This document shows, piece by piece, positions 6,707 through 38,266 of a stretch of DNA of 38,266 nt. Each line of letters starts with the position of its first letter. Position 1 is the first letter of the stretch. Below the pieces are notes generated by a model, which was not told where the DNA came from, did no database searches, and saw nothing but the letters and a program-made list of their open reading frames with translations. The DNA is from Defluviitaleaceae bacterium. Its GTDB lineage: Bacteria; Bacillota; Clostridia; Lachnospirales; WQUN01. The position numbers and the translations under genes were made by a program. Location: assembly GCA_009785615.1 (NCBI GenBank), contig WQVX01000008.1:1-38266 (forward strand). The letters are read 5' to 3'.

Positions 6707-8127
6707 TTTTCATCTTCCTCCGGAGTTACAGGCAGTTGATTGTCTGTACTTCCCACATCGTAATATTCATCATCGTAGTATTCGTCATCGTAGTATTCGT
6801 CATCATAATATTCATCATCATAGTACTCATCATCGTAGTATTCATCATCGTAGTATTCTTCTCCTTCAAAAGTTTCAACAAGAGTTTCCGTTTCATCAGA
6901 TGATGTAACATCGTCAGTTATTGTTGGCTCATTAACTGCTGCAACTTCATCATTTGCTATATCTTCAGCTCCATCGACTGTTGCAACCTCATCAGCAATT
7001 TTTGTAGATTCTTTTTCCAATTTTTGCTTTTCTTTCAGGAAAGCTTCGTAATCTACATTAAGCTCTTCTTTTGTAATAAAATTGAGTCCTTTTGCTTGAG
7101 TCTCACTTTTTATATCAATACGCCACCCGGTAAGGCGAGCAGCAAGCCGTGCATTTTGCCCCTCTTTACCTATGGCCAAAGATAGCTGATGATCCGGTAC
7201 AATAACCTTTGCTGTCATTTCATGAGGATTAATAGCTACTGTATTAACCTTGCTGGGGCTTAAAGCGGAAGCAATAAACTTGACCGGGTCACTGCTCCAG
7301 GGGATAATGTCCATTTTTTCGCCTCTAAGCTCTGCACTTACAATATTAACACGATAACCACTTTGGCCTACGCACGCACCTACAGGATCTACATGGGGAT
7401 TTTTTGAATACACAGCCATTTTGCTACGTATCCCCGGATCTCGTGCTATAGATTTAACTTCTACAGTACCATCATAGACCTCCGGCACCTCTTGTTCAAA
7501 CAACCGCTTAACCAACTCCGGATTAGTACGTGAGACATTGACCACGGGGCCTTTATTGGTTTGTTTAACTTCTAATATATAAACCTTAATCCGATCTTGA
7601 AATTCATAAGGTTCTTTATGCATTTGCTCGCCGGGGTTAAGTATAGCCTCAAGCTTGCCTATGCTTACTATTACATTACGTCTGTCGCGGCGTTGAACTA
7701 CGCCTGTGATGATATCGTGCTCTTTGGTAATATACTCGTTATAGAGTATTTCTCTTTCAGCTTCTCTAAACTTTTGTACTACAACCTGCTTAGCTGTTTG
7801 TGCTGATATTCTGCCAAAATCTTTTGGAGCCACTTCAATTTCTACAATATCCCCAATTTCGTAATCTATTTTGTATTTACGGGATTCTTGCAACGAAATT
7901 TGAGTAACTTCGTCCTCAACTACTTCTACAATTTCCTTTTGGTTAACTACTTTTACTTTGCCTGTTTTTTCATCTATGTGTACCTTTATGTTGGCATTTG
8001 CACCAAAATTCTTTTTGCAAGCTGATACCAGCGAGGTTTCAATGGCTTCAAAAATGATTTGCTTATCAATCCCCTTTTCTCGAGTTATTTGAGATAAAGC
8101 TTCCATCAACTCCGTCGTGCTATCCAT
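6703..8127 (-). CDS. nusA: Transcription termination/antitermination factor NusA with acidic repeat tail
   Basis: Binds RNA polymerase and nascent RNA to control pausing, termination and antitermination. I place the start at ATG 8127 (MDSTTELMEALSQI, 474 residues): it follows AGAGGAGG with ideal spacing, and the longer reading frame from 8151 would put this Shine-Dalgarno inside the gene. Order of domains: NusA N-terminal domain (to about 125), S1 domain (VQRRDRRNVIVSIGKLEAILNP), KH1 and KH2 (VGACVGQSGYRVNIVSAEL and LAIGKEGQNARLAARLTGW), ending near residue 350. A further 120 residues form an acidic tail with EYYDD repeats. The gene overlaps ylxR by three bases (shared in GTGA). Confidence 0.95.
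   Translation of the reverse strand: MDSTTELMEALSQITREKGIDKQIIFEAIETSLVSACKKNFGANANIKVHIDEKTGKVKVVNQKEIVEVVEDEVTQISLQESRKYKIDYEIGDIVEIEVAPKDFGRISAQTAKQVVVQKFREAEREILYNEYITKEHDIITGVVQRRDRRNVIVSIGKLEAILNPGEQMHKEPYEFQDRIKVYILEVKQTNKGPVVNVSRTNPELVKRLFEQEVPEVYDGTVEVKSIARDPGIRSKMAVYSKNPHVDPVGACVGQSGYRVNIVSAELRGEKMDIIPWSSDPVKFIASALSPSKVNTVAINPHEMTAKVIVPDHQLSLAIGKEGQNARLAARLTGWRIDIKSETQAKGLNFITKEELNVDYEAFLKEKQKLEKESTKIADEVATVDGAEDIANDEVAAVNEPTITDDVTSSDETETLVETFEGEEYYDDEYYDDEYYDDEYYDDEYYDDEYYDDEYYDVGSTDNQLPVTPEEDEK
6757..6858 (-). repeat. 15-bp tandem repeat coding the EYYDD tail of NusA
   Basis: Six full copies plus a degenerate seventh of a 15-nt unit encode EYYDD near the NusA C-terminus, ending EYYDVGS. 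Units differ mainly at third positions (GTA/ATA, ATC/ATC). The product is highly acidic and tyrosine-rich, unlike the rest of NusA. Confidence 0.92.
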
Positions 8128-17665: not shown

Positions 17666-18601
17666 TTAAAACGCAAAGCGATTCAAGTCCTCATCAGTAA
17701 TTTGGGTTTTATTGCCAACCAGCCCTACAATCAAATGACTATTATCATGATGATCAAATATCATGCGGTTTAATAACTTAAATCCTTCAATATCGCCTGT
17801 ATTGTTAACATGAAAGCGAGGTCTGGTGCAATAATGCATGATATCTTCAATTTTAATATGTTTCTCATCTATAAAAGAAACAGGGATCTTTTGAGAAATC
17901 AACTCTTCCATACGTCCGGTTAATTCAGCTAAATCAATTTTAGGATCGTTTTTAAAGCGTAGCACAAAGCCATTACGAACATCACCATGCTCATAACGTT
18001 CTTCGGTCATTTCTGAAAGAAGATGTTGTATCAGATCTTCCGCAGTATGAGCCATTTTGCGATATTTGATAGTATCAAATGAAATTTTTGCAATGTCCTC
18101 CGGAGCAGGCCCAAATATAGATGTCCGTGTAATGACTATTTCTGATCCTACGCCTATTAAAAGTTCTGCGTTCCGCTTGTCAAGAAGCGGGTACAATAAT
18201 TCAAAATGTTCTACCACTACCCGCTTACCTTGTTTAATCGCTGCCTTAACTGCTTCAGCCATTGTACCTAATTGCGTAAAAGCCGATTCAAAGCGGACAT
18301 CTAAATGATATGTGTGATTTGAATAAAAGCTACTACTTTCTTCTTCGTCCAATAAATCTAAAATGGGTAAAGGTCGTATATTAACTCCTGCATCATCGTT
18401 GGTAAGCTCCAATCCCGGGAACATGCCTTTTATAAGAAGGCTTTTGCCGGAAGCCGGCTCGCCCATTACTCCAATTAACTGATCTAGCGGACTTAAATGG
18501 AGATGAGATAATTGCATACCCAACTGCACCATACGTTGGTCGCCTCTGGGAGCAAAATACAAACTGTATAAGTGGTTTTTTTGTAAAGGATTAATAGTCA
18601 T
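17666..18601 (-). CDS. P-loop protein of the glutamate mutase operon ("alanine-tRNA synthetase second additional domain" family)
   Basis: A 311-residue protein with a Walker A-like loop GVMGEPASGKSLLIKGMF near residue 44-61. I recall homologues in clostridial mutase clusters under the uninformative name given in the call; it is not an alanyl-tRNA synthetase. Other features are an acidic LLDEEES stretch, GKRVVVEHFELLYPLL, and a C-terminal block HYCTRPRFHVNNTGDIEGFKLLNRMIFDHHDNSHLIVGLVG rich in His. No signal or membrane segment. It is the last gene of the operon, and its ATG overlaps the glmL stop (ATGA), so it is tightly coupled to the mutase reactivator. A role as nucleotide-dependent partner in B12 handling or reactivation is inference. 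Confidence 0.75.
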   Translation of the reverse strand: MTINPLQKNHLYSLYFAPRGDQRMVQLGMQLSHLHLSPLDQLIGVMGEPASGKSLLIKGMFPGLELTNDDAGVNIRPLPILDLLDEEESSSFYSNHTYHLDVRFESAFTQLGTMAEAVKAAIKQGKRVVVEHFELLYPLLDKRNAELLIGVGSEIVITRTSIFGPAPEDIAKISFDTIKYRKMAHTAEDLIQHLLSEMTEERYEHGDVRNGFVLRFKNDPKIDLAELTGRMEELISQKIPVSFIDEKHIKIEDIMHYCTRPRFHVNNTGDIEGFKLLNRMIFDHHDNSHLIVGLVGNKTQITDEDLNRFAF

Positions 18602-19980
18602 ATGGATACATCCTCCAATTCTTTTTTCATGATTGAAAGTGCTACGTCCGGATACTCTATGCTAAGTAGACCCATAGCAGATAAAATATATTGGCGGTCA
18701 ATTAATATCCGGGATGATTTTGGTCGCAAAGATTCCGGCACAGATTCATTATATAAAGCGTGGGTGACAATTTTTGAGACATCACGATTATGAATCAGTG
18801 CGCCCCCTGTGGCAATAAGTGTTTTCACTTTTGTTAAATCCTTGCCGGATTGCAACCAAGTTTGACCCAGAGGTGTATATGTTTCTTCAATGATTCCTGC
18901 GTGCCGCGCGGATGCTGTTTCAACTGCCGCCGCTGCTAAGGCAAAATCTAATGCTGATTGTTCCGGGGTATTTGGCATAGTATCAGGATTTTGCTCTGTA
19001 TGTTTTATCATTTCAACTATTTTTTGAGGCTTTAGACCGGATAACTGAGAAAGCCTCTCAAGACCTACGGCTGTAGAAATTCCCGCCGCGCTGTAGCGCA
19101 TACCAATATCGCCTTCAACTGTCCTTTTTGCCCAGGGTTCCGGCAATCCCTTTATTACGGTATTTTCCAGTGTTGGCGCACCTGATGCCATAGAGTAGAC
19201 ATCGGTTGTTGCTCCGCCTAAATCTACAGCAAATAATTCACCTAAGCCGGGCCGGGAGTCCGTTCCCTTTGCCAATAATTCCATAGCTTGCAATACGGCC
19301 GCAGGGGTGGGCATCATAATCCCACTTATTAACTCTGCTTCGCGAGATAATCCCTTCGCATTAATAATCTGACGAAGAAACAGATCTCGAATATGCCGTT
19401 GAACAGGTTCAATATTTAGCTTTTCCAGTTGAGGCAGTACATTTTCACAGCGATAAACTTCACGTTTGGATAAAATTTTTTCGCATTCAGCGGCACAAGA
19501 CCGATTTCCCGCCAAAAGTATTGGGAAATCGGCCTTGCAATCTACAAGCATTCCGGCATTGTGTAAAATACAATCTTGGTTGCCGCCATCAGTGCCACCT
19601 GTAAGCAAAAAAATATCCGGCTTTATATTCGCTATCTCTTCAATATCTTCGTCGATCAATTGATACGAGTAAACTTTCATTACCTTTGCGCCTGCACCTA
19701 AAGAGGCTACTTTTGCCGCCTCAGCAGTAAGAGCGGGAACAAGGCCGCTTGCGACCATTCGTAAGCCGCCTGCTGCACTGGAACATGCCAAACGCTTTTG
19801 AAAATTTTCAAGCCCCGTTTGCTTTTTAAGTTTTGCTAATGCAAACTCAAGACCCTCACCCACATCGGTTTCTACTGTGGTATATGAAGAAGCAGTGTCT
19901 ATTAATTGTCCCGCTTCAATGTCAACAGCGGTTACTTTGGTAAAGGTACTGCCAAAATCAATAAGCAGGATAGCTTGCAA
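18598..19980 (-). CDS. glmL: Glutamate mutase reactivating protein GlmL/MutL
   Basis: Actin/ASKHA-fold ATPase thought to exchange damaged B12 cofactor from glutamate mutase. The 460 residues start MQAILLIDFGSTFTKVTAVD (phosphate-1 loop); LLTGGTDGGNQD, FPILLAGNRS, ELFAVDLGGATTDVYS (phosphate-2) and TLIATGGALIHNRD (adenosine loop) follow. Length and motifs match the GlmL family. The start is TTG at 19980, supported by AGGAGG eight bases upstream. It lies 12 bases after glmS and overlaps the P-loop gene by four bases. Its place next to glmS is the usual one. Confidence 0.93.
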   Translation of the reverse strand: MQAILLIDFGSTFTKVTAVDIEAGQLIDTASSYTTVETDVGEGLEFALAKLKKQTGLENFQKRLACSSAAGGLRMVASGLVPALTAEAAKVASLGAGAKVMKVYSYQLIDEDIEEIANIKPDIFLLTGGTDGGNQDCILHNAGMLVDCKADFPILLAGNRSCAAECEKILSKREVYRCENVLPQLEKLNIEPVQRHIRDLFLRQIINAKGLSREAELISGIMMPTPAAVLQAMELLAKGTDSRPGLGELFAVDLGGATTDVYSMASGAPTLENTVIKGLPEPWAKRTVEGDIGMRYSAAGISTAVGLERLSQLSGLKPQKIVEMIKHTEQNPDTMPNTPEQSALDFALAAAAVETASARHAGIIEETYTPLGQTWLQSGKDLTKVKTLIATGGALIHNRDVSKIVTHALYNESVPESLRPKSSRILIDRQYILSAMGLLSIEYPDVALSIMKKELEDVSI

Positions 19981-19992
19981 TTACAGTTCCTC

Positions 19993-20406
19993 CTATTCGA
20001 TACGCAGATCTTTACGCAAATCTTCAATGGCAGTTTCGGGAGATGTTCCCGCAGGATACACTCGGCTAAAGCCCATTTCTAAAAAGCGTTGTTCCACTTC
20101 TTCAAAAGGCTGTTTGCCCACCACGATATTGCCACCCACATATAACAGGATATCTTTAAGACCGGCCTCATTGCATCTGTCACGAAAGCCGCGGCAGTCC
20201 AGTTCTCCATGACCATATAGGGAAGAAACAATTATGGCATCGGCAGCAGACTCAATAGCTGCTTCAATATATTCTTCTTGTGATACCATTACGCCTAAGT
20301 TAATAACCTCAAAACCAGCATCAGTAAATGCGTGATAGAGGATCTTATTACCTACTGCGTGAACATCAGCACCGATTACACCGATGACTAGTTTTTTCTT
20401 TTCCAT
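19993..20406 (-). CDS. glmS: Glutamate mutase sigma subunit (B12-binding)
   Basis: Small subunit of adenosylcobalamin-dependent glutamate mutase (EC 5.4.99.1), converting L-glutamate to (2S,3S)-3-methylaspartate with GlmE. The 137 residues have the base-off/His-on cobalamin motif DxHxxG as D14-V-H16-A-V-G19 ([15 protein letters not shown]), then [33 protein letters not shown] and [18 protein letters not shown], all standard. Length equals that of characterised clostridial sigma subunits. It follows the DUF4387 gene by 23 bases and precedes glmL. Confidence 0.96.
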
Positions 20407-20429
20407 TACTCACTTCCTTAATGTATCAT

Positions 20430-20744
20430 CTATAACACGTCAAACTCCAGATCTAAGAGTGGGCCGTGTTGCTGCGCACCGTAAACATCGGTTTCTCCCA
20501 AGTCTCCGGAAGCAATTGGACGTATGATGGTAATTTTAATTGCGTTAGCCTGATAAAACTCCACAATATTGATAATATCTATTGGACTAATTTTATATAA
20601 GTCGCAAATAAGTTGCTCGTTGATAATATTTGCCTTGCAGACTTTTTCAAACCATTGATAATCTTTAAACATGATATCAAATGTGAGTTCATAAGGCCCT
20701 GCATTCTTACTTCGGATAACTTCAGTAATATCTATCAATTTCAT
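20430..20744 (-). CDS. DUF4387 family protein, partner of the AtuA-family protein
   Basis: A 104-residue soluble protein with DUF4387 features: LIDITEVIRSKNAGPYELTFDIMF at the N-terminus, ITIIRPIASGDLGETDVYGAQQHGPLL at the C-terminus. DUF4387 is known to occur next to, or fused with, AtuA/DUF1446 proteins, and is presumed to form one enzyme with them; no reaction is established to my knowledge. Here it follows the AtuA-family gene by 15 bases inside the glutamate-mutase operon. The conserved SKNAGP and GDLGETDxYGAQQH segments are candidate active-site parts. Confidence 0.85.
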   Translation of the reverse strand: MKLIDITEVIRSKNAGPYELTFDIMFKDYQWFEKVCKANIINEQLICDLYKISPIDIINIVEFYQANAIKITIIRPIASGDLGETDVYGAQQHGPLLDLEFDVL

Positions 20745-20759
20745 TTATTAAACCCTCCC

Positions 20760-22172
20760 CTACAGTTGAATAATATCTATGGGAAACATACCGGCCGGTT
20801 CATACTTTTCCAGTTTTAGCAGATGGTAGACACTAAATGCATAGACTTCTCCGGCTTGAAAATCACTTGGGGAATAAGGAAAGGCTAAATTTCCGGCAGT
20901 GGAGCGTCTACCCTCATAGCCATAATGGAGCATTGTTGATCTGGCAAAAGCACAGATGGTATCAGCTTCTTTTTGAGTAGGAGCAGTAACATCAATTATT
21001 ATGCCAAGCTCATGGCAGCCTTCAGTTGTTGGATTAGGCTCTAACTCTGCCATTACGCCATCGCGACCATATATTTTAAAGTTAAGATTATAACTAAGTA
21101 ACGCATCCATCTCCGCAAAGTTGTCAGCAACTCGATCCCTAACACCTTCTATAATTTCATCAATTTTAGAAATCATCATCGGATCTCTGGTACCTGCGAT
21201 AGAAACAGTTCGGTAGCCAACAAGTTTAGCCCCTTCCAATTTAATCGTATAAGGATCTGAAGGGACAAATTTAGTTCCGCGAACCAGTACAGTATTTTCT
21301 GTTTCCTGTTCAAATTCGCAATTGTGCAAATCAAGGTGTCCACCGGGGCCGGGTAAAATATAAGGGTTAGTTTTTTCATAGAGAGTATGAGCAGCTACTG
21401 ATAAAGTTGTGCATTTTCTGGCCGGAGAGAGAGGTTCCACACGGAAGTAGTCCTCACCTATGTAGCCAAACATGCAATCGCTGCCACTTCCCGGAGTAGC
21501 GCAGATGGCTGCACATTCCAATATTTTTCCCAAATGAAGAGACAGAGCAATATCGTAACCCATCTTAATAGGCAATGCAGCAAAACATGCCGGGTCATAA
21601 GCACGGCCTGCTAAGATTACACTAGGTTTTACGCCATTGCTGCCTTCTTTATCAAATGCTCTGATAAAAGGCTCTACTCCAATTTGCCCTACTATTCTGC
21701 TGGTAGCATCTATTTCTTCTTCCGTCAAAGAAGATATTAAATTACCCTTTTTCAAGGACACCATAGTGTCTTGCACCAGTTCACACTTTATCCTTTCCTT
21801 GAACAGTTCAGAGTAGATTAATGCCAAATTAAAATGCAGATCATTTTCCTTTGCGATTTCTTCCACAATCTCATAGCACCAATTTAAATGAGGTACACCC
21901 CCACTGCCTCCCGCTGTACCAACAACAACAGGAATATTGTTTTTAACTCCTGCTTTTATCATTATTTCAAGATCGCGCTTAACAGCATCGCGGTCAGTAA
22001 AAGATTTACCTGAACCCAAATAATATGGGCCGGGATCAGTAGATCCTCCATCAGCAGCAATCAAATGAGGTTTTCTTTTCATTCCCTCTTCAAAAGATGA
22101 CATAGGAAAGCCATAACCAAGAATTGCTGTAGTTGATAGAATACGAAATTCTTCTTTTTTAGTTTCTTCCAT
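20760..22172 (-). CDS. AtuA-family (DUF1446) protein in the methylaspartate operon
   Basis: Named after AtuA of acyclic terpene use in Pseudomonas, but members in anaerobes have no fixed function. The 470 residues carry GYGFPMSSFEEGMKRKPHLIAADGGSTDPGPYYLGSG at the N-terminus, VVVGTAGGSGGVPHLNW, VILAGRAYDPACFAALP and GPGGHLDLHNCEFEQ, all typical of the family. It is intact. It lies 15 bases after methylaspartate ammonia-lyase and 15 bases before DUF4387. The operon lacks a fumarase-like mesaconase, and a conserved gene at this place could act on mesaconate or citramalate; that is inference from context only. Confidence 0.86.
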   Translation of the reverse strand: MEETKKEEFRILSTTAILGYGFPMSSFEEGMKRKPHLIAADGGSTDPGPYYLGSGKSFTDRDAVKRDLEIMIKAGVKNNIPVVVGTAGGSGGVPHLNWCYEIVEEIAKENDLHFNLALIYSELFKERIKCELVQDTMVSLKKGNLISSLTEEEIDATSRIVGQIGVEPFIRAFDKEGSNGVKPSVILAGRAYDPACFAALPIKMGYDIALSLHLGKILECAAICATPGSGSDCMFGYIGEDYFRVEPLSPARKCTTLSVAAHTLYEKTNPYILPGPGGHLDLHNCEFEQETENTVLVRGTKFVPSDPYTIKLEGAKLVGYRTVSIAGTRDPMMISKIDEIIEGVRDRVADNFAEMDALLSYNLNFKIYGRDGVMAELEPNPTTEGCHELGIIIDVTAPTQKEADTICAFARSTMLHYGYEGRRSTAGNLAFPYSPSDFQAGEVYAFSVYHLLKLEKYEPAGMFPIDIIQL

Positions 22173-22187
22173 AATGTAGTAATCCCC

Positions 22188-23429
22188 TTAATCTTGTTTG
22201 AGCAGGGCAATAATCCGCTGCATTTCGTTGTTAACAATCATGTAGCCTTCATCTACCCCCATGCCGGGTTTAGCCAGTATTTGAACCGGCCGGGTTGCCA
22301 TAGCAAGATGTACGCAAATTTGAGCGGAGCGATCAGTTTCATTGCATGTACCGCCTTGATACGCTCCAACGCCTTTTTCTTTGCAATAGAGAACTGCCTC
22401 CACAGTATTTCCGATACCACCTAAATCCGGTGTTTTAATTTGCACCATATGGCCTGCTTTGTTGTCAGCAAAATATTTGATATCTTCTAATGTGTTGCAC
22501 CACTCATCGGCTACCAATTCTACATTAATGTTTCGCTCGTCTAATAACTTGGTTAATGTAGACAAAGCTATCATTTGTTGTTCTCGATCCTCTACATCCA
22601 TGGGGCCTTCAATTCTCAGCTTAAAAGGAGCCGCCGCTTTTTCCAGCGTAGCCAGATAATCAGCCATTGCGGAATAATTATCATTGCCAAACACAATCCC
22701 AATGGTGCCGTAAACATCAAGATGAAGTATGGGGGCATAATTGTTATCTAAGCGTAAATCTAAAATTCGATTTCGCAACCAAGTAACATACTCTAACAGC
22801 AATTCCCCTTTTTCTCCTAACTTGGTTTTAACATTATTTATCAGACCATGAGGTAATACATGTGCTCCCTTTAAAATCATTTTGTCAGAGTTATCATACC
22901 GATTATCTCCCGACTGAGTGAAAATAGGGATAGGGCTTGCAATTAACCGAGTTCCATACTCTTGAGCGATAACCTGACACATCATCTGCTTTTTAGATTT
23001 AGCCACAGCATCCAAAATAGCCTGAGATATACCGTAACGAATGGCAGTATGCAATGGCTGATTATTTATAGTCATAGCTTCAAGCGCATCTGCCATTTGC
23101 CGAAAAGTAGTAATCTCCCGGCCTACCAACGCAGGAAAAACATGTTCTTCAATCAATGGGATAAAGTCTTTGGCTAAAAATAGCGGATCTCTTCCCCCTG
23201 CACCTGAATATTGCACTGCTGCACAATCTCCATGGGCTACTTGGCCATCCTCCAAAACCAACATAACCGAAATAGATTCTCCGGCCTGACGTACTGCTGA
23301 AAATCCGGGCGTTACCGGAGAGCCTTTATAAGCGGAGCCATCGGCAACGGCACCTTCTTTAATTGCTCGCTGGTCATCAAAAAAGAAACCCGTTCTTCCC
23401 GGTGAACATACACCTTTAATGATTTTCAT
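22188..23429 (-). CDS. mal: Methylaspartate ammonia-lyase
   Basis: Eliminates ammonia from (2S,3S)-3-methylaspartate to give mesaconate (EC 4.3.1.2); enolase superfamily. The 413 residues match the clostridial enzyme in length. The catalytic general bases are in place: His194 (VLPHGLINN) and Lys332 (MVQIKTPDLGG, equivalent of Lys331). The Mg-binding region follows HLDVYGTIG, IEGPMDVEDREQQ and LVADEWCNT, and the family N-terminus GRTGFFFDDQRAIKEGA is intact. It lies 9 bases after glmE and 15 before the AtuA-family gene. Confidence 0.97.
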   Translation of the reverse strand: MKIIKGVCSPGRTGFFFDDQRAIKEGAVADGSAYKGSPVTPGFSAVRQAGESISVMLVLEDGQVAHGDCAAVQYSGAGGRDPLFLAKDFIPLIEEHVFPALVGREITTFRQMADALEAMTINNQPLHTAIRYGISQAILDAVAKSKKQMMCQVIAQEYGTRLIASPIPIFTQSGDNRYDNSDKMILKGAHVLPHGLINNVKTKLGEKGELLLEYVTWLRNRILDLRLDNNYAPILHLDVYGTIGIVFGNDNYSAMADYLATLEKAAAPFKLRIEGPMDVEDREQQMIALSTLTKLLDERNINVELVADEWCNTLEDIKYFADNKAGHMVQIKTPDLGGIGNTVEAVLYCKEKGVGAYQGGTCNETDRSAQICVHLAMATRPVQILAKPGMGVDEGYMIVNNEMQRIIALLKQD

Positions 23430-23438
23430 GATTCCCCC

Positions 23439-24887
23439 CTATTTTGGACGCCCAACTAAACGACCATTACTTATAGCATACACATCATCTATAACCATTT
23501 GGAATGATGCTTTTCGATTTTCCTCTTTGGCTCTTGCATCAACTTTCTGCTTGTGGAAGTCCAACAACTCCGGAGTCAAAGGCAAATTACCGGGGTTAAA
23601 AATACGAACAGCACCATCATTGTCTCTAACAGGTAATAATTTACCGGCATTAACACGAGCAGGAGCAAATGGAATATCAAGTACACCTGCTTGAAAAGCG
23701 CGTACTGTTCCAACAGCAATATCACCTTCACCAAGTTCAAAGACTTTTTCGATAATGCAACGAGTTTCGGAAGAGATGATTTCACTTTCGTCATTCATGT
23801 CTTTACCACTGACTGTTTGATCTGACAGCATAGAAATTATCTGCTTAGTACAGCGTAATCCCTGGGCATTAGCTTCCATAGTAGGAATGCCGATAGCTTC
23901 ATGAGGTGTCTTGACTATAACTTTTGTTGCACCGGAAAGTGCAGCTACTGTACTTCCCCATGAAATAACAGAAAATGCTTTAGCTTCATCTTGGGGGAAC
24001 CCGCCCATCCATTGATGCAAAACAGTGGTGACATCAACATTATCGTAGCCATATTTACGCAAGTATTCTTCTGTTAGAGCTTGAAGAGTTTTGATGGCGG
24101 CAACATCTTGCAAAAGATTGCCACACTGCCCATAACCAACTGTAATATTTTTTACGCCCTGTTCTGCTGCAAGGAGACTTTCAATAATCGCTACAGAGTG
24201 AGAAATACATGGGGGCACTAAAGTTCCGGTAAGCGGCCCAAAAGGTTCCCTATTTATAGAAGCTCCCGCTTCTTCATACATTCCGGTAAGCCTATCCACA
24301 TACTGCCAATCAAGAAGAGTTTGAGTCAAGTCAGCATTTTTGGCATAAGGAATGTTATAACTGATTCCTCCGCCCTCGTTACTTGTAAAACCACCGTTAT
24401 AGGTTATCTCGGCTAATAATCTGGCATCGGGGGTACCATGACGTACTTGAACAGGAACATCCATAGCCTCTATAATTTGGCGGCAACCATATATGCCATG
24501 GTTAACAGCCGGAAATCCATTGAGCAGGGATTTTCCTTCTTTAATGGATTCTTCAATTCCCATTTGAGCTTTTCCAAAACGATTTTGCCGGGTATAACTG
24601 TCTATGGTTGTGGGCAAAAGGTCGGCCTCGCCCTCATTTTGCAGATATTTTAACAATTTAATATGATCAGGGATCAATGCAACACCGGCACGTGGTTGGA
24701 TCAATGTCTTTCCTGACTCTTTAGCTTTTAACAGCTTGAGGGCAAAAATCTTGTTTTCCGGCAAATTTTTATGATACTCAATGGCCTCGTCCATGTTTAC
24801 ATATCTTCCGGTAGACCACTGTTGAAGTACTTCTTCTCGCTGGGCGTAAAATGTTTCATCACTAAGCCGTTTGTTTGTGAGAACCAT
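23439..24887 (-). CDS. glmE: Glutamate mutase epsilon subunit
   Basis: Large catalytic subunit of glutamate mutase; binds glutamate in a TIM barrel and pairs with the B12-carrying GlmS. The 482 residues are the normal size. Recognisable blocks: [84 protein letters not shown] and [27 protein letters not shown]. The arginine-containing segments LIQPRAG and QVRHGTPD fit the substrate-carboxylate arginine clamp of the family. Starts 48 bases after the shikimate-dehydrogenase-like gene. Confidence 0.96.
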
Positions 24888-24935
24888 ATCTTGGCTCCTT
24901 TTGGATAAAATTAGATAAATTTTTTTGGTAGGTCA

Positions 24936-25808
24936 TTAGACTTCCATTTCTTTTAAGATTTCGTTAACTTCGGCTGTCATAATTTCATATGGCTCCGGAT
25001 GACCGGTCCACAGCCTAACTTGCAGTGCTCCTTGATTGACTAACATACCAAGCCCATTAATAATTTTACAACCCATCTCCTCAGCTTCGATAAGAAATTG
25101 CGGTTTTAAGGGATTGTATGTAGCATCAAGGCATACAGGTTTATGGTTAAGCTCAGTTTTATCAATCCATGTTTCATTGGTGTTAGGATACATTCCTATA
25201 CCGGACATATTCATTACAACTGTGGAAGCATTAACCATTTTAAGCATTTTTTCTTTTTCAGAATAACGACAGGATTTGGCTATAGGCCCAAAGTTACTGT
25301 TTAGCTCTTCTGCAAGTTTTTCAGCAGATTCGTTGATATCACAGACATAAAAATTTTTTGCTCCATGGTGGGCAAGAGTAAAGCACACAGCTTTGCCGGC
25401 TCCGCCACAACCTAAGTTAAAAAATGTGTTGTTGGCCGGATCAACTCCGTTTTGTTTAAGATCAGATACGCATCCTTCACCATCAGTATTATAGCCCTTG
25501 AGAGTGCCACTATTATTGACCACTGTATTGACAGCACCCATTTTTTTTGCTAAATCATCCAATTCATCCAAATATTTGAGAATTTCAACTTTATTTGGTT
25601 TGGTAACAGCAAAACCGGGCACATTCATCCAGCGCAAAGCATTTACAACATTACCTAAATGCTCATTAGTAATTTCAATTGGAAAATAACAGCCATCAAA
25701 ACCTATGGATTTATACGCAGCATTTTGCATACGTGCAGAAAATGATTGACGCAAGGGCATTCCCAATAAAGGAATCAGTTTTGTATCAACAGAAATTGGA
25801 ACAAACAC
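24936..25808 (-). CDS. Shikimate-dehydrogenase family oxidoreductase, first gene of the glutamate mutase operon
   Basis: AroE/YdiB-fold NAD(P)-dependent dehydrogenase of 290 residues. The substrate residues of shikimate dehydrogenase appear conserved: SxS in QSFSARMQN, the catalytic Lys in VTKPNK, Asp in NTDGEG, and Gln in MLVNQGALQ. The dinucleotide loop is GCGGAGKAV. At the end of the next strand the sequence is YVCDINES, with Asp where NADP-specific AroE has Asn-Arg, so NAD is the likely cofactor (inference). It starts at GTG 25808 after AAGGAGG. It stands between a promoter and glmE, so it is coexpressed with a catabolic pathway rather than aromatic synthesis; the substrate may not be shikimate. 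Confidence 0.85.
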   Translation of the reverse strand: MFVPISVDTKLIPLLGMPLRQSFSARMQNAAYKSIGFDGCYFPIEITNEHLGNVVNALRWMNVPGFAVTKPNKVEILKYLDELDDLAKKMGAVNTVVNNSGTLKGYNTDGEGCVSDLKQNGVDPANNTFFNLGCGGAGKAVCFTLAHHGAKNFYVCDINESAEKLAEELNSNFGPIAKSCRYSEKEKMLKMVNASTVVMNMSGIGMYPNTNETWIDKTELNHKPVCLDATYNPLKPQFLIEAEEMGCKIINGLGMLVNQGALQVRLWTGHPEPYEIMTAEVNEILKEMEV

Positions 25809-29563: not shown

Positions 29564-30550
29564 TTATATTTTTATTAACCGTTCTGCTTCATACCATGCT
29601 ACAAATTTTTCTATACCCATATTAAAAGGGGTACCGGGATTATAACCTAATACCTGTTTAGCCTTGCTAATATCGGCACATGTCACATTAACATCTCCCG
29701 GTGGTACAGGCATTTGTAATATATTAGCAGCTTTTTTAGTTGTATTTTCAATAGTTTTAAGCATATCTTTTAAAGACACTGTATAAGATTCACCCAAATT
29801 AAATATTTCATACAAATTTACACCTGTATGTGTCCAGTCTAAAGCAAGTAATATACCACTTACAATATCGTCTATATATGTATAATCTCGTCCCATACTA
29901 CCATCACCATAAAAAGGGATAGATTCATTTTTATATATTTTGTCAGTAAATTTATAAATTGCCAAATCCGGTCTCTGCCTAGGGCCATATACTGTAAAAA
30001 AGCGGAGACAAGCTGTGTTAATATCATATAAATGGTGATACGTATAGCAAATCAACTCACCTGCTTTTTTTGTAGCAGCATAAGGCGAAATTGGATTGTC
30101 AACAGCATCACTTTCTCTAAATGGTGTCTTTTCACTATTGCCATAAACTGAAGACGAAGAAGCAAATACAAGCTTCTTTATTTCATGATTTTTCATGCAT
30201 TCCAATATATTTGTGGTTCCCATTAGGTTTACATCAATGTACAAAGGTGCATCTTCTATAGAAGGGCGCACTCCCGCACAGGCTGCCAAATGAATAACCG
30301 CATCTAAAGAATGTTGGCGAAAACATTGATCTAATGCTTCCGAATCTTGAATATCACCTTCAACTATTACCAAGCTTCTGCAACATTCTTTAGCAGTAAA
30401 TTGTACATGTTTCACATTATCGCGTTTATATTCAGGTAAGTAATAATCGCTAAAGTTATCATAAATATAAACGTCATGTCCCGTTTTAAGCAAAGCTTCA
30501 CACACGTGAGATCCTATAAACCCGGCACCACCGGTTACTAAAATTTTCAT
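29564..30550 (-). CDS. NAD-dependent epimerase, UDP-glucuronate 4-epimerase type
   Basis: Short-chain dehydrogenase (extended SDR) that inverts a hydroxyl on a nucleotide sugar. The NAD loop is TGGAGFIGSHVCEALL; the SDR catalytic set is Ser in FASSSSVYG and YxxxK in YAATKKAG. Motifs YDNFSDYYLPEYKRDNV, GVRPSIEDAPLYIDVNLMG and RFFTVYGPRQRPDLAIYKF are more like UDP-glucuronate 4-epimerases (CapI/LspL) than GalE. The 328-residue length fits. It sits at the 3' end of the glycan cluster, 2 bases after the flippase-like gene, and probably supplies a uronic or related sugar for the surface glycan; the exact substrate is inferred. Confidence 0.88.
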   Translation of the reverse strand: MKILVTGGAGFIGSHVCEALLKTGHDVYIYDNFSDYYLPEYKRDNVKHVQFTAKECCRSLVIVEGDIQDSEALDQCFRQHSLDAVIHLAACAGVRPSIEDAPLYIDVNLMGTTNILECMKNHEIKKLVFASSSSVYGNSEKTPFRESDAVDNPISPYAATKKAGELICYTYHHLYDINTACLRFFTVYGPRQRPDLAIYKFTDKIYKNESIPFYGDGSMGRDYTYIDDIVSGILLALDWTHTGVNLYEIFNLGESYTVSLKDMLKTIENTTKKAANILQMPVPPGDVNVTCADISKAKQVLGYNPGTPFNMGIEKFVAWYEAERLIKI

Positions 30551-30552
30551 AT

Positions 30553-31506
30553 TTAATGACCGCCTTCTTTTTTATTAATCATTAGACCAATTTCCATACC
30601 AATACCTGCTAGTGCCTGAATTATAGTTAAAGCCAAAAAGCCAAACGAAACAGCTAACGCTTGTTCCGGCTCTACACCAATTTGACCTAACAAGCCAATC
30701 AAGCTACCTTCACGTATGCCTATTCCACCTAGTGATATCGGGAGTATAAGCACAAAGGTAAGCACAGAATTAATCCACAACCATTCTAAAAAACTTGCCT
30801 CTGCACCTACTCCATATGACAAAATAACACCTATTATAGCCACGGACAATTGAAACAACAATACAAATAAAAATACCTTAACCATAAGTCCTATATTACG
30901 TGTGTATCCATGCCAATGCTCTGCCATTTGTGCTAAAACATTAAAAAATTTACCAAATCCGGCTACTCTTTGCGAAAGAAAGAGTAGTAATCTATTTATT
31001 CGATTGTAGAAGAACAAAGAAGCCAAAGAAAACAACATCAAAGTTAAAACAATTCCTGCAATAACAAAAACATAAATCAATATATACCCTAAGCTACCAG
31101 CAAATATCAAACCCACAGTACCAAGGAATAAAAGTACAATAACAGTAATTATCTTATTTAATGCAACAGCAGCACTTGATTGTCCAAAGGATTTTTCATC
31201 CTTCCCAAGTAAATATGCCCTAACTCCCTCTGTAGCCAACTGTCCGGGCAAAATAAAACCATAAGCAAATGAAACTAAACGCACATAGAGTAAAGATAGA
31301 AATGTTTGGTTAGGCATGAAAAGCATAAATACTACTACAGAAATAATCACTTGAACAACCATTAATAAAAAAACAAAGCCCCATAATAGTAAGGGAATAT
31401 TCAATAAATGTGAAATAATTTTGCTTATATCATGAGTTAGTAATATGTAACCTAATAAAAATATTGCTATAAATAACTTTAACAAAATACCAATGTTTTT
31501 TTTCAT
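30553..31506 (-). CDS. Flippase-like membrane protein (lysylphosphatidylglycerol synthase TM-region family, UPF0104)
   Basis: Polytopic membrane protein with about eight hydrophobic segments: LLKLFIAIFLLGYILL, GFVFLLMVVQVIISVVVFMLF, YGFILPGQLATEGVRAYLLGKDEKSFGQSSAAVALNKIITV (the most conserved loop), and PISLGGIGIREGSLIGLLGQIG near the end. These PGQ...E.RA and GGIGIREG motifs define the family, also found beside glycosyltransferases (AglD/YbhN-like). I prefer ATG 31506 (317 residues, MKKNIGILLK); a TTG at 31527, overlapping the methyltransferase stop, is an alternative. It probably has a role in lipid-linked sugar or lipid translocation in this cluster, unproven. Confidence 0.85.
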   Translation of the reverse strand: MKKNIGILLKLFIAIFLLGYILLTHDISKIISHLLNIPLLLWGFVFLLMVVQVIISVVVFMLFMPNQTFLSLLYVRLVSFAYGFILPGQLATEGVRAYLLGKDEKSFGQSSAAVALNKIITVIVLLFLGTVGLIFAGSLGYILIYVFVIAGIVLTLMLFSLASLFFYNRINRLLLFLSQRVAGFGKFFNVLAQMAEHWHGYTRNIGLMVKVFLFVLLFQLSVAIIGVILSYGVGAEASFLEWLWINSVLTFVLILPISLGGIGIREGSLIGLLGQIGVEPEQALAVSFGFLALTIIQALAGIGMEIGLMINKKEGGH

Positions 31507-31527
31507 ACATCTGTTCCAATCGTTCAA

Positions 31528-32373
31528 TTATCCTTGGCTTTTTTGTGCAACGAGGAGTACACTACAACCAAAAGGTATTTTAAGAGTACGCTTTATCAAA
31601 AATTGTTCAAATTTCAATAAATAAAGTGCAATGGATTGCCCCACTGACTCATGCTCCTTTGCAAATTTATCAAAACTATGATGATTTTTATTTTTACTGA
31701 ATAATCTGTATGGTAATGCTTTAAGAAAAAACATAGGAGGTAAAAGTAAACTAAAAAAATATGTGGAGTACACTATATTAAAGCCGTTGTTGCAAAACAA
31801 TTCTTCAAACTGCTTTAGAGAATATCGCCTATGATGGAGCATATAGTTATCTTTTGCTGACCAAAGAAATTTATGTGCAGGAACAGTTGCAACAACTTTT
31901 CCATTTTCAGATAATAATGAATGTAAGTCACGAACAAACTTACCATCATCTTCAATATGCTCTAAAACATCAAATAGTCCAACAGCAGGCATACTACATT
32001 CCTTAACTGTAGACGAATCAAAAAGTCCCCAAACAATATTTTTTACCCCTCTTTTTTTTGAACTTAAAACGCCATTTTGCGTAGGTTCAAATAAAATAAC
32101 AGGATATCCCTGATTTGATAGTTGAACAGCATTGTACCCATTTCCGCCACCAATGTCCACAAAACCTTGATTTTCTTGCAATGGTACAAAAGTTTTTATT
32201 GCAGTAATAATACAAGCAGTTCTATGTTTGTGCCAAAAACTAGTACTATTTACGATGTCTATTCCATCTAATCCTTCAATTGGCATATCTATTTTAGAAG
32301 TATCCGGAATGTTATTTGCACAGTAAATTCCGTTTTTAATTTCCATATTTTCAAGTTTCAAATTTTCTAACAT
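31528..32373 (-). CDS. Class I SAM-dependent methyltransferase
   Basis: A 281-residue soluble enzyme with the SAM loop VDIGGGNGYNAVQLSNQG near residue 73, acidic residue in ILFEPT, and GLFDVLEHIEDDGKFVRDLHSLL followed by KVVATVPAHKFLWSAKDNYMLHHRRYSLKQFEELF, the pattern of many methyltransferases in surface polysaccharide clusters. The start follows GGGAG at ten bases. The C-terminal part has a hydrophobic SLLLPPMFFLKALPYRLF segment that may touch the membrane. Substrate unknown; the context suggests a lipid-linked glycan. It is 23 bases after the GT2 gene. Confidence 0.88.
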   Translation of the reverse strand: MLENLKLENMEIKNGIYCANNIPDTSKIDMPIEGLDGIDIVNSTSFWHKHRTACIITAIKTFVPLQENQGFVDIGGGNGYNAVQLSNQGYPVILFEPTQNGVLSSKKRGVKNIVWGLFDSSTVKECSMPAVGLFDVLEHIEDDGKFVRDLHSLLSENGKVVATVPAHKFLWSAKDNYMLHHRRYSLKQFEELFCNNGFNIVYSTYFFSLLLPPMFFLKALPYRLFSKNKNHHSFDKFAKEHESVGQSIALYLLKFEQFLIKRTLKIPFGCSVLLVAQKSQG

Positions 32374-32396: not shown

Positions 32397-33398
32397 TTAC
32401 TTAGCTAAAGTATTTGTGGATTTATCAAAATTATCAGCTTCTATTTCATTAAAAAGCTCACCATTAATTCTCACCTCTTTAATTGAGTACGACCTATCCA
32501 TTTGACTACCATAATAAATTTTACTAAGCACATCACTCATTAGTCCACAAACAAACAAAAATAGCCCGGCCATCAAAAAAGCTAAAGTAAGAAATGCTTG
32601 AAAATCATCAGTCAGACTTTGCCCGGATATAAAGTTAATTGTTGTCCAAATTCCACTTGCCCCACCAAGCATAAGCATAAGTATACCTATGCCACCTAAC
32701 AAGTGAAGTGGGCGTACGGAGTATTTGTGCCAAAACCAAACTGATACCATATCAATAAATCCTTTAACAGTGCGTTTCCAATTATATTTGGTTTTTCCGG
32801 CAGCTCGTGGACGATGATTTACCACAAGTTCGCCTACAGTAAATCCTTTTATTCTTAAAAGTGCCGGTATAAAACGATGCATTTCACCATACAAAGTTAA
32901 ATGATCAAAACATTCTTTTTTGTATACTTTTAAAGAACATCCACTATCATGTATATCGTCTTTTACAATAATGCTACGTAATAAATTGGCTCCTCTTGAA
33001 GTGAACCGTTTAAAGAAAGTATCTTTACGATTTTTACGCCATCCGGATACTACATCCCAATCTTCTTCAATTAAATAATCAACTAATCGTGGAATATCCA
33101 CAGGATCATTTTGACCGTCCCCATCCATAGTAATAATAAGAGGGTATTGGGCGGCTTTTATTCCGGCATCCATAGCAGCAGTTTGCCCAAAATTACGGCG
33201 TAGGCGTATAAGTTTTAAAGGATGAAGGTGTTTACATGCTTCAAATGTGCCATCTGTAGAGCCATCATCTACAAATATTATTTCATAGACATAACTTGCA
33301 TCTTCACAAGCTTGATTGATTTCTCTATGTAAATTAGCAACATTTTCCCTTTCATTGTACACAGGTACTACTATTGAAATTTTAATTAATTCATCCAC
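32397..33398 (-). CDS. Polyprenol-phosphate-type glycosyltransferase, GT2 family (DPM1/GtrB-like)
   Basis: Transfers a sugar from a nucleotide donor to polyprenyl phosphate on the cytoplasmic face. GT-A motifs: ISIVVPVYNERENV, IIFVDDGSTDGT, MDGDGQNDPVDIPRL and HDSGCSLKVYKKE. Two C-terminal membrane helices (LLGGIGILMLMLGG and FLTLAFLMAGLFLFVCG) are as in GtrB/ArnC enzymes. I use GTG 33398 (333 residues), spaced eight bases from GGGAG; the GTG at 33407 is too close to it. The lipid-linked sugar it makes is a plausible donor for the GT39-like enzymes upstream. Confidence 0.9.
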   Translation of the reverse strand: MDELIKISIVVPVYNERENVANLHREINQACEDASYVYEIIFVDDGSTDGTFEACKHLHPLKLIRLRRNFGQTAAMDAGIKAAQYPLIITMDGDGQNDPVDIPRLVDYLIEEDWDVVSGWRKNRKDTFFKRFTSRGANLLRSIIVKDDIHDSGCSLKVYKKECFDHLTLYGEMHRFIPALLRIKGFTVGELVVNHRPRAAGKTKYNWKRTVKGFIDMVSVWFWHKYSVRPLHLLGGIGILMLMLGGASGIWTTINFISGQSLTDDFQAFLTLAFLMAGLFLFVCGLMSDVLSKIYYGSQMDRSYSIKEVRINGELFNEIEADNFDKSTNTLAK

Positions 33399-33430
33399 TT
33401 TGTACACTCCCTTGTTTTTAGTACTTTATT

Positions 33431-33612: not shown

Positions 33613-35829
33613 TTAACGTATAATGCGATAGGCATAAAAGCCTCTATGAGAATACACCCTCACTCTATCTTCATAGAGAAGAATTTCAGATGCTAATCCA
33701 AAAACTTCCTCTTCATCTAAAGTACTGCGCATATAAATAAATACAGCTTCTGATGGTTTCACATCATTCAAAGCTTCAGTAAATGCATCTAAATTACTCG
33801 CAATAAAAATTCTTTGGAATTCAAAAAAATCTGTATGAATGGTACGCAGGGTGCTTCCGGTAACGCCAAATGACGCAACAATTAGAGAATGAGGTTCGTA
33901 ATCTGCAACAATATTAGCTACATTAGGAGTTTCAGGAAACATATTTTGTACATTTCTATTGTAAAAGCTAAAGAAAACTAAAATTATAGTAGTTAATGCT
34001 AAAGCTCCAATTTTTATATGCTTATGTATATATCCGGAAGTATGGTGTATTATGAATAAAAAACACAGTATTATGCTTGGAGAAATAGCGATTATATATC
34101 GAACACTCATAAGCGGTGCAATTGCAGAAACAATTAGAAAATATGGTACTGTAACAAACAATAAATAAACTATTGGAGTATAATCATGTCTGACAGTGAT
34201 AAAATTAATTTTCTTATAAAAAAGCATACACAAAACAACAGAAACAATTGCCAGAACAAATATTATCAGTAGGCAGGAACTCCAAAAATCACCAAATAGT
34301 TGTCGGTTAAGGCTTGCTGCAAATTCACCAATTCTATAAAAATTATCTTCAGGATCTAAAAAATTTCTAACCGCTTCTGTTCCACGCCCGGATTGGCTCA
34401 AATGGTGTATTATATGAGGCCAAAACAAGAGGTATGCACTTGCTGCTATCACAGTAGTTATAATACAATTGCGAAGCTTTATATATTCTTTTGAAAACAA
34501 AAGCCATAATAATAACGCCAACGAAGAAAATGAAAAAAAGATTAAGAAATAATAGTGAGTAAGTGTACCGAAAAAAATCACAAACGCCAAACTAACATAA
34601 AATTTCCAACCTATATTCACTTTTTTACTGATTAGCATAAGGGCTAGATAACTTAAAGCTGTAAAAAAGAATATAAGGGTACTATACATACGAAAAAGAA
34701 CAGCATTAGACATTGCTGCATTGCTAAAACCCCAAATAATTACGGGTAACAAAGCCATCCAAGATTTATCAAAAACTAATTTTGCAGCTTTATATAGAAC
34801 TATTGCCGTAGCTGTCAACCAAAAAATATTTATTCCCGCACCCATCCAATTATTCCAAGTGTTAGGAAATAACGAGCCAACAAAATGCAATTGCATATGA
34901 TAAAATAACGGATGATTGTTAAGAGTAAGCGTATTGTATACATAACTAAAGTCGAAGCGTTCTCCTTGTTGTACTGTTATTAAATTCCAAAAATATTCAG
35001 GATAGTGCCAACTATTCCGAAAGTTTGGCTCCATATGTAGTGACATTCCTCCTGTTAATCTACCATTTGCTTGTCCAAGCGATGTAATTTCATCTGTATG
35101 ATATCCTCCCTTTTGATCTACATAGTAAACCATAGACAAGGTTTGGAAAATAATCACAAAAGCAAAAATTACCCATTGGTGAGCGATAAGCCATGTGCCA
35201 AATCCGCGAAAAACAATAAAATACCACAAAACACTTATAGTAGTAGCAACTAATAAAAATAAAAATAAAAAATAATTCGGTAGTACAACAAACCTACTAA
35301 GTGTAATACCATCAACTATCATAGACATATAATGTCTATGACCCAGACGAAGTTCCAATCCTGCCCATTCATTATTAGGGATGCGTATAGTATTTTGCCC
35401 TTCATTTAATCTAAACTGTGTAGAGTATCCATCAGAGAAGCGTGCACTTTCTTCCCTAGCTCTAAGTCTAACATTTCTATTTGGATCACTAAGACGAGAT
35501 ATAAAAACTGTTACATGGTTAAATCTCCCAATAGTACCATTCAGATTTTCAATATCTATATTCACAAATCCACGTTCGTCTGAAGTGAAAATGATATCAC
35601 CTCTAACTTCAAAGCCTTCAAGGTGATTGTAAACTTCTTCTTGATTTAAAGTTATAGTACGTTGCATCATTTGTGGTATCCCAATCCCATCAGAAATTAC
35701 TAACGAAAGAACGCAATACGCTATAATTAATGATGCAATCAATATCAAAATAGATGCATGTAGTTTATAATTTCCAAATAGATCTTTTAAATATAAACTA
35801 TGTATAGATTTAAACCAATTTTTTTTCAT
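33613..35829 (-). CDS. GT39-like membrane glycosyltransferase, copy A
   Basis: GT-C fold enzyme expected to transfer sugars from a polyprenyl-phosphate donor on the outer face of the membrane. The 738 residues hold a first membrane helix (ILILIASLIIAYCVLSLVI), an extracytoplasmic domain of about 140 residues unusual at this position (FEVRGDIIFTSDERGFVNI, ...NEWAGLELRLGHRHYM), then about ten further helices. The acidic catalytic-type motif YHTDEITSLGQANG is near residue 243, in the first large loop of the catalytic region as in PMT/GT39. The C-terminus has no membrane helix. AAAGGAG precedes the ATG by 11 bases. The right-hand neighbour is a close paralogue, so this is a tandem duplication. 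Confidence 0.82.
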   Translation of the reverse strand: MKKNWFKSIHSLYLKDLFGNYKLHASILILIASLIIAYCVLSLVISDGIGIPQMMQRTITLNQEEVYNHLEGFEVRGDIIFTSDERGFVNIDIENLNGTIGRFNHVTVFISRLSDPNRNVRLRAREESARFSDGYSTQFRLNEGQNTIRIPNNEWAGLELRLGHRHYMSMIVDGITLSRFVVLPNYFLFLFLLVATTISVLWYFIVFRGFGTWLIAHQWVIFAFVIIFQTLSMVYYVDQKGGYHTDEITSLGQANGRLTGGMSLHMEPNFRNSWHYPEYFWNLITVQQGERFDFSYVYNTLTLNNHPLFYHMQLHFVGSLFPNTWNNWMGAGINIFWLTATAIVLYKAAKLVFDKSWMALLPVIIWGFSNAAMSNAVLFRMYSTLIFFFTALSYLALMLISKKVNIGWKFYVSLAFVIFFGTLTHYYFLIFFSFSSLALLLWLLFSKEYIKLRNCIITTVIAASAYLLFWPHIIHHLSQSGRGTEAVRNFLDPEDNFYRIGEFAASLNRQLFGDFWSSCLLIIFVLAIVSVVLCMLFYKKINFITVRHDYTPIVYLLFVTVPYFLIVSAIAPLMSVRYIIAISPSIILCFLFIIHHTSGYIHKHIKIGALALTTIILVFFSFYNRNVQNMFPETPNVANIVADYEPHSLIVASFGVTGSTLRTIHTDFFEFQRIFIASNLDAFTEALNDVKPSEAVFIYMRSTLDEEEVFGLASEILLYEDRVRVYSHRGFYAYRIIR

Positions 35830-36122: not shown

Positions 36123-38266
36123 TTAACGTATAATACGATAAGCATGAAATCCCATACTATGATACGCTCTTACTCTATCTTCATAAAGAAGAATTTCAGA
36201 TGCCAACCTCAAAATTTCCTCTTCATCTAAACGATGGTGTATATAAATGAACACATCTTCTGATGGTTTCAAATCGTTCAAGGCTTCAGTAAATGCATCT
36301 AAATCGTAAGCAATAAAAATTCTTTGAAACTCAAGAAAATCTATATGGATGTGACGCAGATTAGGCCCGGAAACACCTGATGCAACAATTAAAGAATGAG
36401 GTTCGTAATCTGCAACAATATTAGCTACACTAGGAGCTTCCGGGAATAGATTTAATACATGCCTATTATGAATATTAAAGAAAACTAAAATTATAGTAGT
36501 TATTATTAAAACCCCAATTTTCACATTCTTTTGTAGATATTTAGCAGTACAATATATCACAAATAAAAAACACAATACTATACTTGGAAAAATGGCAGAT
36601 ATATATCTAACATTCATAATTGGTGCAATTGAAGCAACAATTAGAAAATATGGTAATGTAACAAATAATAAGTAAATGATTTGAGTATAATCTCGCTTGA
36701 TAGTGATAAAATTAATTTTCTTATAAAAAAGCATACACAAAACAACAGAAATAATTGCCAGAACAAATATTATCAGCAGATAAGAACTCCAAAAATCACC
36801 AAATAGTTGTCGGTTAAGGCTTGCTACAAATCTACCAATCCTATAAATATTATCTTCAGGGTCTAAAAAATTTCTAACCGCTTCTGTTCCACGGCTAGAT
36901 TGAGTCAGATGGTATATTACATGAGGCCAGAACAATAGATATGCACCTGCTGTTATTGTAGTAGTTATAATACAATTGCGAAGTTTTATATATTCCTTTG
37001 AAAACAAAAGCCATAATAATAACGCCAATGAAGAAAATGAAAAAAAGATAAAGAAATAATATTGAGTAAGTGCACCAAAAAAAATCACAAACGCTAAACT
37101 AACATAAAACTTCCAACTTATATTCACTTTTTTACTGATTAACATAAGAGCCAGATAACTTAAAGCTGTAAAAAAGAATGTAAGAGTACTATACATACGA
37201 AAAAGAACAGCATTAGACATTGCCATATTGCTAAAACCCCAAACAATTACAGGTAACAAAGCCATCCAAGATTTATCAAAAACTAATTTTGCAGCTTTAT
37301 ATAGAATTATTGCCGTAGCTGTCAGCCAAAAAATATTTATCCCCGCACCCATCCAATTATTCCAAATGTTGGGAAATAACGAACCAACAAAATGCAATTG
37401 CATATGATAGAATAGCGGATGATTATTAAGAGTAAGCGTATTGTATACATAGCTAAAGTTAAATCGTTCTCCTTGTTGCACTGTTATAAGATTCCAAAAA
37501 TATTCAGGATAGTGCCAACTATTCCGAAAGTTTGGCTCCATATGTAGTGCAACTCCTCCTGTTAATCTGCCATTTGCTTGTCCAAGTGATGTAATTTCAT
37601 CTGTGTTGTACCCCCTCTTTTGATCGACATAATAAACCATAGACAAAGTTTGGAGAATAACTATAAAAGCAAAAATTACCCACTGATGAGCAATTAGCCA
37701 TGTACCCAATTTACGAAAAACAATAAAATACCACAAAATGCCTATAATAATAGCAGTTAATAAAAATAAAAACAAAAAATAATTTGGTAACACAGTAAAC
37801 CTACTAAGTATAATGCCATCGACTATCATAGACATATAATGCCTATGACCCAGACGAAGTTCCAACCCTGCCCATTCATTATTAGGGAGGCGTACAGTGT
37901 TTTGTCCTTCACTCAATCTAAGTGACGTAGATAACCCCCCCCCCCCGATAGAAAAGCCCGTATTTTCTTCCCTGGCTCTAATTCTAACATTTCTATTCGG
38001 ATCACTAAGGCGAGATATAAAAATTGTTACATGACTAAATCTCCCGATAGTATCATCCAAATCTTCAATATCTATAATCACAAATCCACGTTCGTCTGAA
38101 GTGAAAATGATATCACCTCTAACTTCAAAGCCTTCAAGGCGATTGTAAACATCTTCTTGATTTAAAGTTATAGTACGTTGCATCATTTGTGGTATCCCAA
38201 TCCCATCAGAAATTACTAACGAAAGAACGCAATACGCTATAATTAATGATGCAATCAATATCAAAA
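36123..38266 (-). CDS. GT39-like membrane glycosyltransferase, copy B (5' end outside window), with a G12 tract
   Basis: Same architecture as copy A and nearly identical over the central region (about 93% by eye across the segment FSYVYNTLTLNN to KKVNI.WKF), more diverged toward the C-terminus. The frame runs off the right edge; comparison with copy A shows about 25 N-terminal residues are missing. The motif YNTDEITSLGQANG is intact. About residue 106 of the visible part, twelve consecutive G encode four Gly (FSIGGGGLSTS), where copy A reads FSDGYSTQ with no homopolymer. The present length keeps the frame open. Either neighbouring length would truncate the protein within the extracytoplasmic domain. 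Function inferred as for copy A. Confidence 0.82.
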   Translation of the reverse strand, partial: LILIASLIIAYCVLSLVISDGIGIPQMMQRTITLNQEDVYNRLEGFEVRGDIIFTSDERGFVIIDIEDLDDTIGRFSHVTIFISRLSDPNRNVRIRAREENTGFSIGGGGLSTSLRLSEGQNTVRLPNNEWAGLELRLGHRHYMSMIVDGIILSRFTVLPNYFLFLFLLTAIIIGILWYFIVFRKLGTWLIAHQWVIFAFIVILQTLSMVYYVDQKRGYNTDEITSLGQANGRLTGGVALHMEPNFRNSWHYPEYFWNLITVQQGERFNFSYVYNTLTLNNHPLFYHMQLHFVGSLFPNIWNNWMGAGINIFWLTATAIILYKAAKLVFDKSWMALLPVIVWGFSNMAMSNAVLFRMYSTLTFFFTALSYLALMLISKKVNISWKFYVSLAFVIFFGALTQYYFFIFFSFSSLALLLWLLFSKEYIKLRNCIITTTITAGAYLLFWPHVIYHLTQSSRGTEAVRNFLDPEDNIYRIGRFVASLNRQLFGDFWSSYLLIIFVLAIISVVLCMLFYKKINFITIKRDYTQIIYLLFVTLPYFLIVASIAPIMNVRYISAIFPSIVLCFLFVIYCTAKYLQKNVKIGVLIITTIILVFFNIHNRHVLNLFPEAPSVANIVADYEPHSLIVASGVSGPNLRHIHIDFLEFQRIFIAYDLDAFTEALNDLKPSEDVFIYIHHRLDEEEILRLASEILLYEDRVRAYHSMGFHAYRIIR
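37935..37946 (-). repeat. Homopolymer of 12 C (12 G on the coding strand) inside GT39-like copy B
   Basis: The only long G/C homopolymer in the window, inside an AT-rich gene. The codons are TCT ATC (GGG)x4 TTA TCT. One extra G gives VIYVT then TAG; one fewer gives GYLRHLD then TGA. Confidence 0.95.

Follow-up and report, generated by a model that had tools for sequence, protein, structure and literature searches.

Does a run of twelve guanines switch a membrane glycosyltransferase on and off in an uncultured member of the Clostridia? The window, meaning the whole stretch of DNA analysed, has 38,266 nucleotides. It covers all of contig C8 from a genome that was assembled into 240 contigs, measures 3.29 Mb and is 97% complete. 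Its plus strand has twelve C at 37935-37946, which is a G12 homopolymer in the minus-strand open reading frame 36123-38264. We refer to this gene as copy B. The tract reads ATC GGG GGG GGG GGG TTA and occupies codons 107-110 of the in-window reading frame, and the protein around it is ...FSI-GGGG-LSTSL... The first-pass annotation had described the run as lying in the coding strand and encoding four glycines in frame, and the sequence confirms it. It had also predicted what the neighbouring lengths would do, and a check of the sequence by hand gives the same answer. With G13 the next codons are V I Y V T followed by TAG (5 codons), and with G11 they are G Y L R H L D followed by TGA (7 codons). 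A contingency locus should have a G/C tract of at least 8-9 in a coding frame, beyond chance, whose neighbouring lengths abolish the product, and such tracts should be biased towards surface genes. G12 is such a tract, and both G11 and G13 would abolish the product. One can imagine reading the early stops as a sign of design. We reject this because the median distance to an off-frame stop in the copy B gene is 8 codons, and the G11 and G13 stops are no closer than usual.

It is worth considering what kind of protein would be switched. Copy B looks like a polytopic membrane transferase of GT-C type, with 713 aa in the window, and its 5' end lies off the contig. The full-length paralogue, copy A, is at 33613-35829 on the minus strand and has 738 aa. 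Over aligned codons the two are 84% identical in protein and 88% identical in DNA. The alignment bears out the earlier claim that the neighbouring paralogue is tract-free, as copy A has no tract at that site and is three codons shorter there. The dN/dS between A and B is 0.27 by NG86 and 0.22 by YN00. Selection is purifying downstream of the tract too, so both copies look functional.

The enzyme class is another matter. The first-pass annotation called these genes GT39-like, and that label finds no support in the Pfam PMT/PMT_2 or NCBIfam GT39 models. Neither copy has a Pfam match at E 0.1 or an NCBIfam match at E 0.01. Copy A does not match a PMT model even at E 10, and it has no sequence match in the PDB. 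Distant homologues in two relatives (G040 and G002) are 21-25% identical and align over the C-terminal two thirds. An Asp-Glu pair is invariant over all four sequences. In copy B it is encoded at 37596-37601 on the minus strand (D246-E247 of copy A), and some 335 bases separate it from the tract, which comes first. The G13 and G11 stops both fall before it, in line with the earlier view that truncation comes ahead of the catalytic helices. Copies A and B also have an extra N-terminal transmembrane helix and beta-rich domain of about 200 residues, which holds the tract in B and is missing from both homologues. Many hydrophobic helices, a D-E pair near the beginning of the core and a soluble C-terminal portion fit a GT-C transferase as far as can be judged from sequence, with the helix pattern known only from a low-confidence AlphaFold2 model built from two sequences (pLDDT 37). 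On this reading copies A and B would share with the GT-C enzymes of GT39/PMT, ArnT and GT83 a polytopic membrane build, a conserved Asp-Glu placed in the core's first large loop, a soluble C-terminal portion and an adjoining GT2 polyprenyl-phosphate transferase. Copies A and B differ from them in matching no Pfam PMT/PMT_2 model and in carrying the extra N-terminal helix and beta domain.

Downstream of A and B on the same minus strand are a GT2 polyprenyl-phosphate glycosyltransferase-like gene (32397-33407; its ArnC/PgfS-type scores are below cut-off), a SAM methyltransferase (31528-32373), an LPG_synthase_TM or flippase-like membrane protein (30553-31527; TIGR00374) and a GalE/GDP-mannose dehydratase-like sugar-nucleotide epimerase (29564-30550). 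Going by these gene assignments, the operon with copies A and B looks like a lipid-linked sugar or glycan pathway. The gap between copies B and A is 293 b, and promoter and terminator scans of that gap did no better than on shuffled sequence. Elsewhere in the window, at 17666-25808, there is a methylaspartate mutase (MutE, MutL) and methylaspartate ammonia-lyase cluster for glutamate fermentation. The best MutE matches include termite-gut Oscillospiraceae and Clostridiales MAGs, which is consistent with a Clostridial affiliation. The closest MutE sequences come from termite-gut Clostridia and Treponema MAGs, which suggests exchange between them.

Is a run of this length more than chance would give? 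Run statistics were taken from a 400 kb sample of the source genome and from pattern searches of the whole genome. In the sample the longest G/C runs are of 7, and there are three of these. A first-order Markov model predicts too many runs of 5-8, yet it expects merely 0.06 runs of at least 12 per genome. Four consecutive GGG codons are expected about 0.02 times (0.022) per genome from glycine codon use. The whole genome actually has nine runs of at least 8, five of at least 9 and two of at least 12, so the tail of run lengths is heavier than geometric. Such a tail would be what slippage-driven expansion produces. The G12 tract is more than chance.

The rest of the source genome is less helpful. 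The first-pass annotation had proposed looking for other G/C homopolymers of at least 9 in surface genes, and that search left G12 as the single glycan-gene tract of this genome. This counts against the contingency reading. The remaining long runs are intergenic (contigs C29 and C70), near a protein C-terminus (C217) or at a GGG motif (C202), and their genes and positions mostly reject them as supporting surface loci. The C202 run is a run of GGG codons in a histidine kinase, and the four G8 runs are ordinary; all were rejected. The others may be described in their own right. A C10 run at G000:C217 (L024) 1785-1794 is near the stop codon of a FliS-like gene, where slippage would alter the C-terminal tail only. 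At G000:C29 (L021) 3521-3562 a hairpin with C7 and G10 arms follows recJ. A G18 run at G000:C70:16557-16574 (L022 4558-4575) precedes the ATG of a methyl-accepting chemotaxis protein by 38-55 b and adjoins a -10-like TACTAT. It might act as a switch of promoter spacing, but past the run the contig tail resembles sequencing noise.

The family of this genome is rich in G/C tracts. Of 38 family genomes, 37 have G/C runs of at least 9. Runs of at least 12 occur in 18 of 26, versus 31 of 209 genomes from the other families of the order, with contig-end runs included and with the caveat that the family assemblies are drafts, which may inflate this count. Two classes of run were kept apart. Runs at contig ends are G17-G99 and often broken by single other bases, and in public drafts they are probably base-calling or assembly artefacts. 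Poly-G of 17-99 is seen at contig ends of G002, G011 and G001 (L164, L165, L172, L175, L223). The interior tracts are 10-21 long and mostly intragenic. They lie in glycan genes at 11 of 28 loci on a strict count and 17 of 28 on a broad count, while among 20 control loci there is a single glycan gene, a glycan transferase (Fisher p = 0.008 and 7e-5), where the 28 genes were named from their flanks by Pfam or by reading and the glycan labels were assigned by the analyst, not blind. The strict eleven are two TylF, one PS_pyruv_trans, two FkbM-type, one AlgX, two GT2, two NAD epimerases and a cytidylyltransferase. The broad count adds three methyltransferases, two radical SAM proteins and a transketolase in a sugar cluster. 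Control loci came from four of the same genomes, with two Mur ligases excluded from the glycan count, and no G/C run in this DNA, 6-21 kb from each genome, is longer than 7. The surface-gene bias of contingency loci is thus found both in the operon of the window and in these family counts. It must be noted that some tracts fall outside surface genes. In G004 a G14 in prfA (L159, G004:C7, 1520-1533) lies at the conserved Gly-rich motif, which there reads GGGGG; this could be an unusual natural variant, or else the sequencing may be wrong.

Some of the family tracts are in frame, including G12 on contig C55 of G002, G11 on C1 of G032 and G14 on C14 of G011. At least two genes instead have their reading frame broken precisely at the tract. 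A two-domain TylF-type methyltransferase gene of G004 changes frame at a G11 (L030, G004:C1, 1499-1509). The G002 glycan cluster L271 (G002:C106) has tracts C11, G13 and G13 at 7315, 11948 and 13539, and its FkbM-type gene is split at the last G13. The only other homologue of A and B in the family is on this same contig with its three intragenic tracts. Slipping tracts would be expected to give assemblies in which some genes are in frame and others split, and one-base homopolymer errors would give the same picture. Conservation of a tract in the same gene between species was considered and rejected. For the PS_pyruv_trans gene of G002 the family offers no homologue, and the homologue of the G004 TylF gene in G007 (L275), at 51% identity, encodes one intact protein of 635 aa and is tract-free. 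No tract-bearing orthologue of A or B was found in 60 relatives, nor in a search of genome contigs with copy A as query. An A3 profile search over the family returned only the G002 homologue, which has no N-terminal domain. The relatives searched include no member of the same genus, and each species is represented by one genome.

Could the tract, or its length, simply be wrong? Dark-G calling, homopolymer error or repeat collapse near the contig end might each do this, and the position of the tract invites suspicion. Contig C8 ends 320 b upstream of G12, which is why the copy B frame has no start. The last 115 b (38152-38266, minus strand) are identical to copy A at 35636-35750; this exact repeat is the probable cause of the contig break and of the missing 5' end. 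Contig-end poly-G is common in related assemblies, the C70 contig tail with its G18 in this genome looks like sequencing noise, and difficulty with Illumina sequencing at G tracts has been reported (PMC9187656). However, G12 is not a read tail or a duplicate of copy A, because the 320 b beyond it are clean in-frame coding sequence homologous to A and the bases flanking the tract differ from A. A one-base error would have broken the frame. We consider an artefact improbable.

A second alternative accepts the tract and denies it a role. Here G12 is a slippage-prone Gly4 loop of the beta domain that was expanded by drift, with off-frame variants purged. The glycines are in frame, copy A tolerates a length three codons different at this site, the genome has a single glycan-gene tract and the off-frame stops are no closer than average, all of which suits a neutral loop. 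It does not explain the low chance expectation, nor why the family tracts are concentrated in glycan genes and include frame-split examples. Even if the loop is neutral, a tract of this length is expected to slip anyway, which would make the gene phase-variable in effect. This explanation is possible, but we think it unlikely. One can also imagine that the tract tunes structure, with in-frame steps between G9, G12 and G15 altering the glycine loop of the extracytoplasmic domain and no ON/OFF switching. The tract does encode a loop-like Gly stretch, and copy A differs in length there. Slips of one base greatly outnumber steps of three, so ON/OFF would dominate, and we regard tuning as very improbable.

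We argue that copy B is probably a functional GT-C-type membrane glycosyltransferase that is switched by slippage of its intragenic G12 and that the assembly captured it ON. Lengths of 12, 9 or 15 would keep the frame, and any other would end translation within 5 or 7 codons. The OFF product would be a stub that lacks the catalytic core and keeps the first transmembrane helix plus a portion of the extracytoplasmic beta domain. Copy A, being tract-free, would stay on, and cells would differ in whether a second transfer step on a surface glycan or lipid-linked sugar takes place. The tract would have to change length at a high rate in this organism, copy B would have to transfer sugar, and the phenotype would be a change of glycan between one-enzyme and two-enzyme states. 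The family context strengthens this interpretation, which we consider plausible. We would give about even chances to the wider claim that this uncultured gut-type Clostridia family (Oscillospirales-like) has a poly-G phasome that independently switches surface-glycan enzymes, the window gene included. On that claim the targets would be methyltransferases, pyruvyl and acetyl transferases, epimerases and glycosyltransferases.

Slippage switching is a known mechanism. In Campylobacter, Helicobacter and Neisseria, poly-G contingency loci lie in surface-glycan genes (PMC8355987, PMC6321876, PMC2823697). Copy B resembles them in having a G/C tract of at least 9 in a glycan gene with both neighbouring lengths truncating, and many tracts are likewise spread over glycan genes, here at the level of the family. 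It differs in its Clostridia lineage, in having one glycan tract in its genome and in being seen at a single assembled length. Its target also differs, being a membrane transferase of GT-C type whose tandem paralogue is tract-free. Bifidobacterium breve offers a precedent. In its sortase-dependent pilus genes, G10-G12 tracts undergo slippage in vivo, and the length given in the reference assembly turned out not to be the majority one (PMC9187656). It too is a Gram-positive gut bacterium with an intragenic G tract of the same length affecting a surface structure, but the gene is a pilus gene, the phylum is Actinomycetota and the variation was measured by maximum depth sequencing (PMC9187656). 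Clostridioides difficile belongs to the Clostridia like copy B's host and has stochastic ON/OFF of surface and signalling genes. Its phase variation, however, works by DNA inversion, that is by site-specific recombination and not by slippage (reviewed in PMC11868660). The literature searched has no published poly-G contingency locus in Clostridia, so it is plausible that the lineage is new for this mechanism.

Phase variation in Clostridia has been described mainly as DNA inversion. If the family phasome is true, slippage loci would be a regular strategy of gut Clostridia as well. Many poly-G runs in MAGs are artefacts and must be removed first, and a gene of this kind in a MAG may look like a pseudogene when it is merely OFF. 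If the tracts slip, uncultured gut Clostridia would diversify their surface glycans in much the same way as Campylobacter, and phages or host factors may be what this protects them from.
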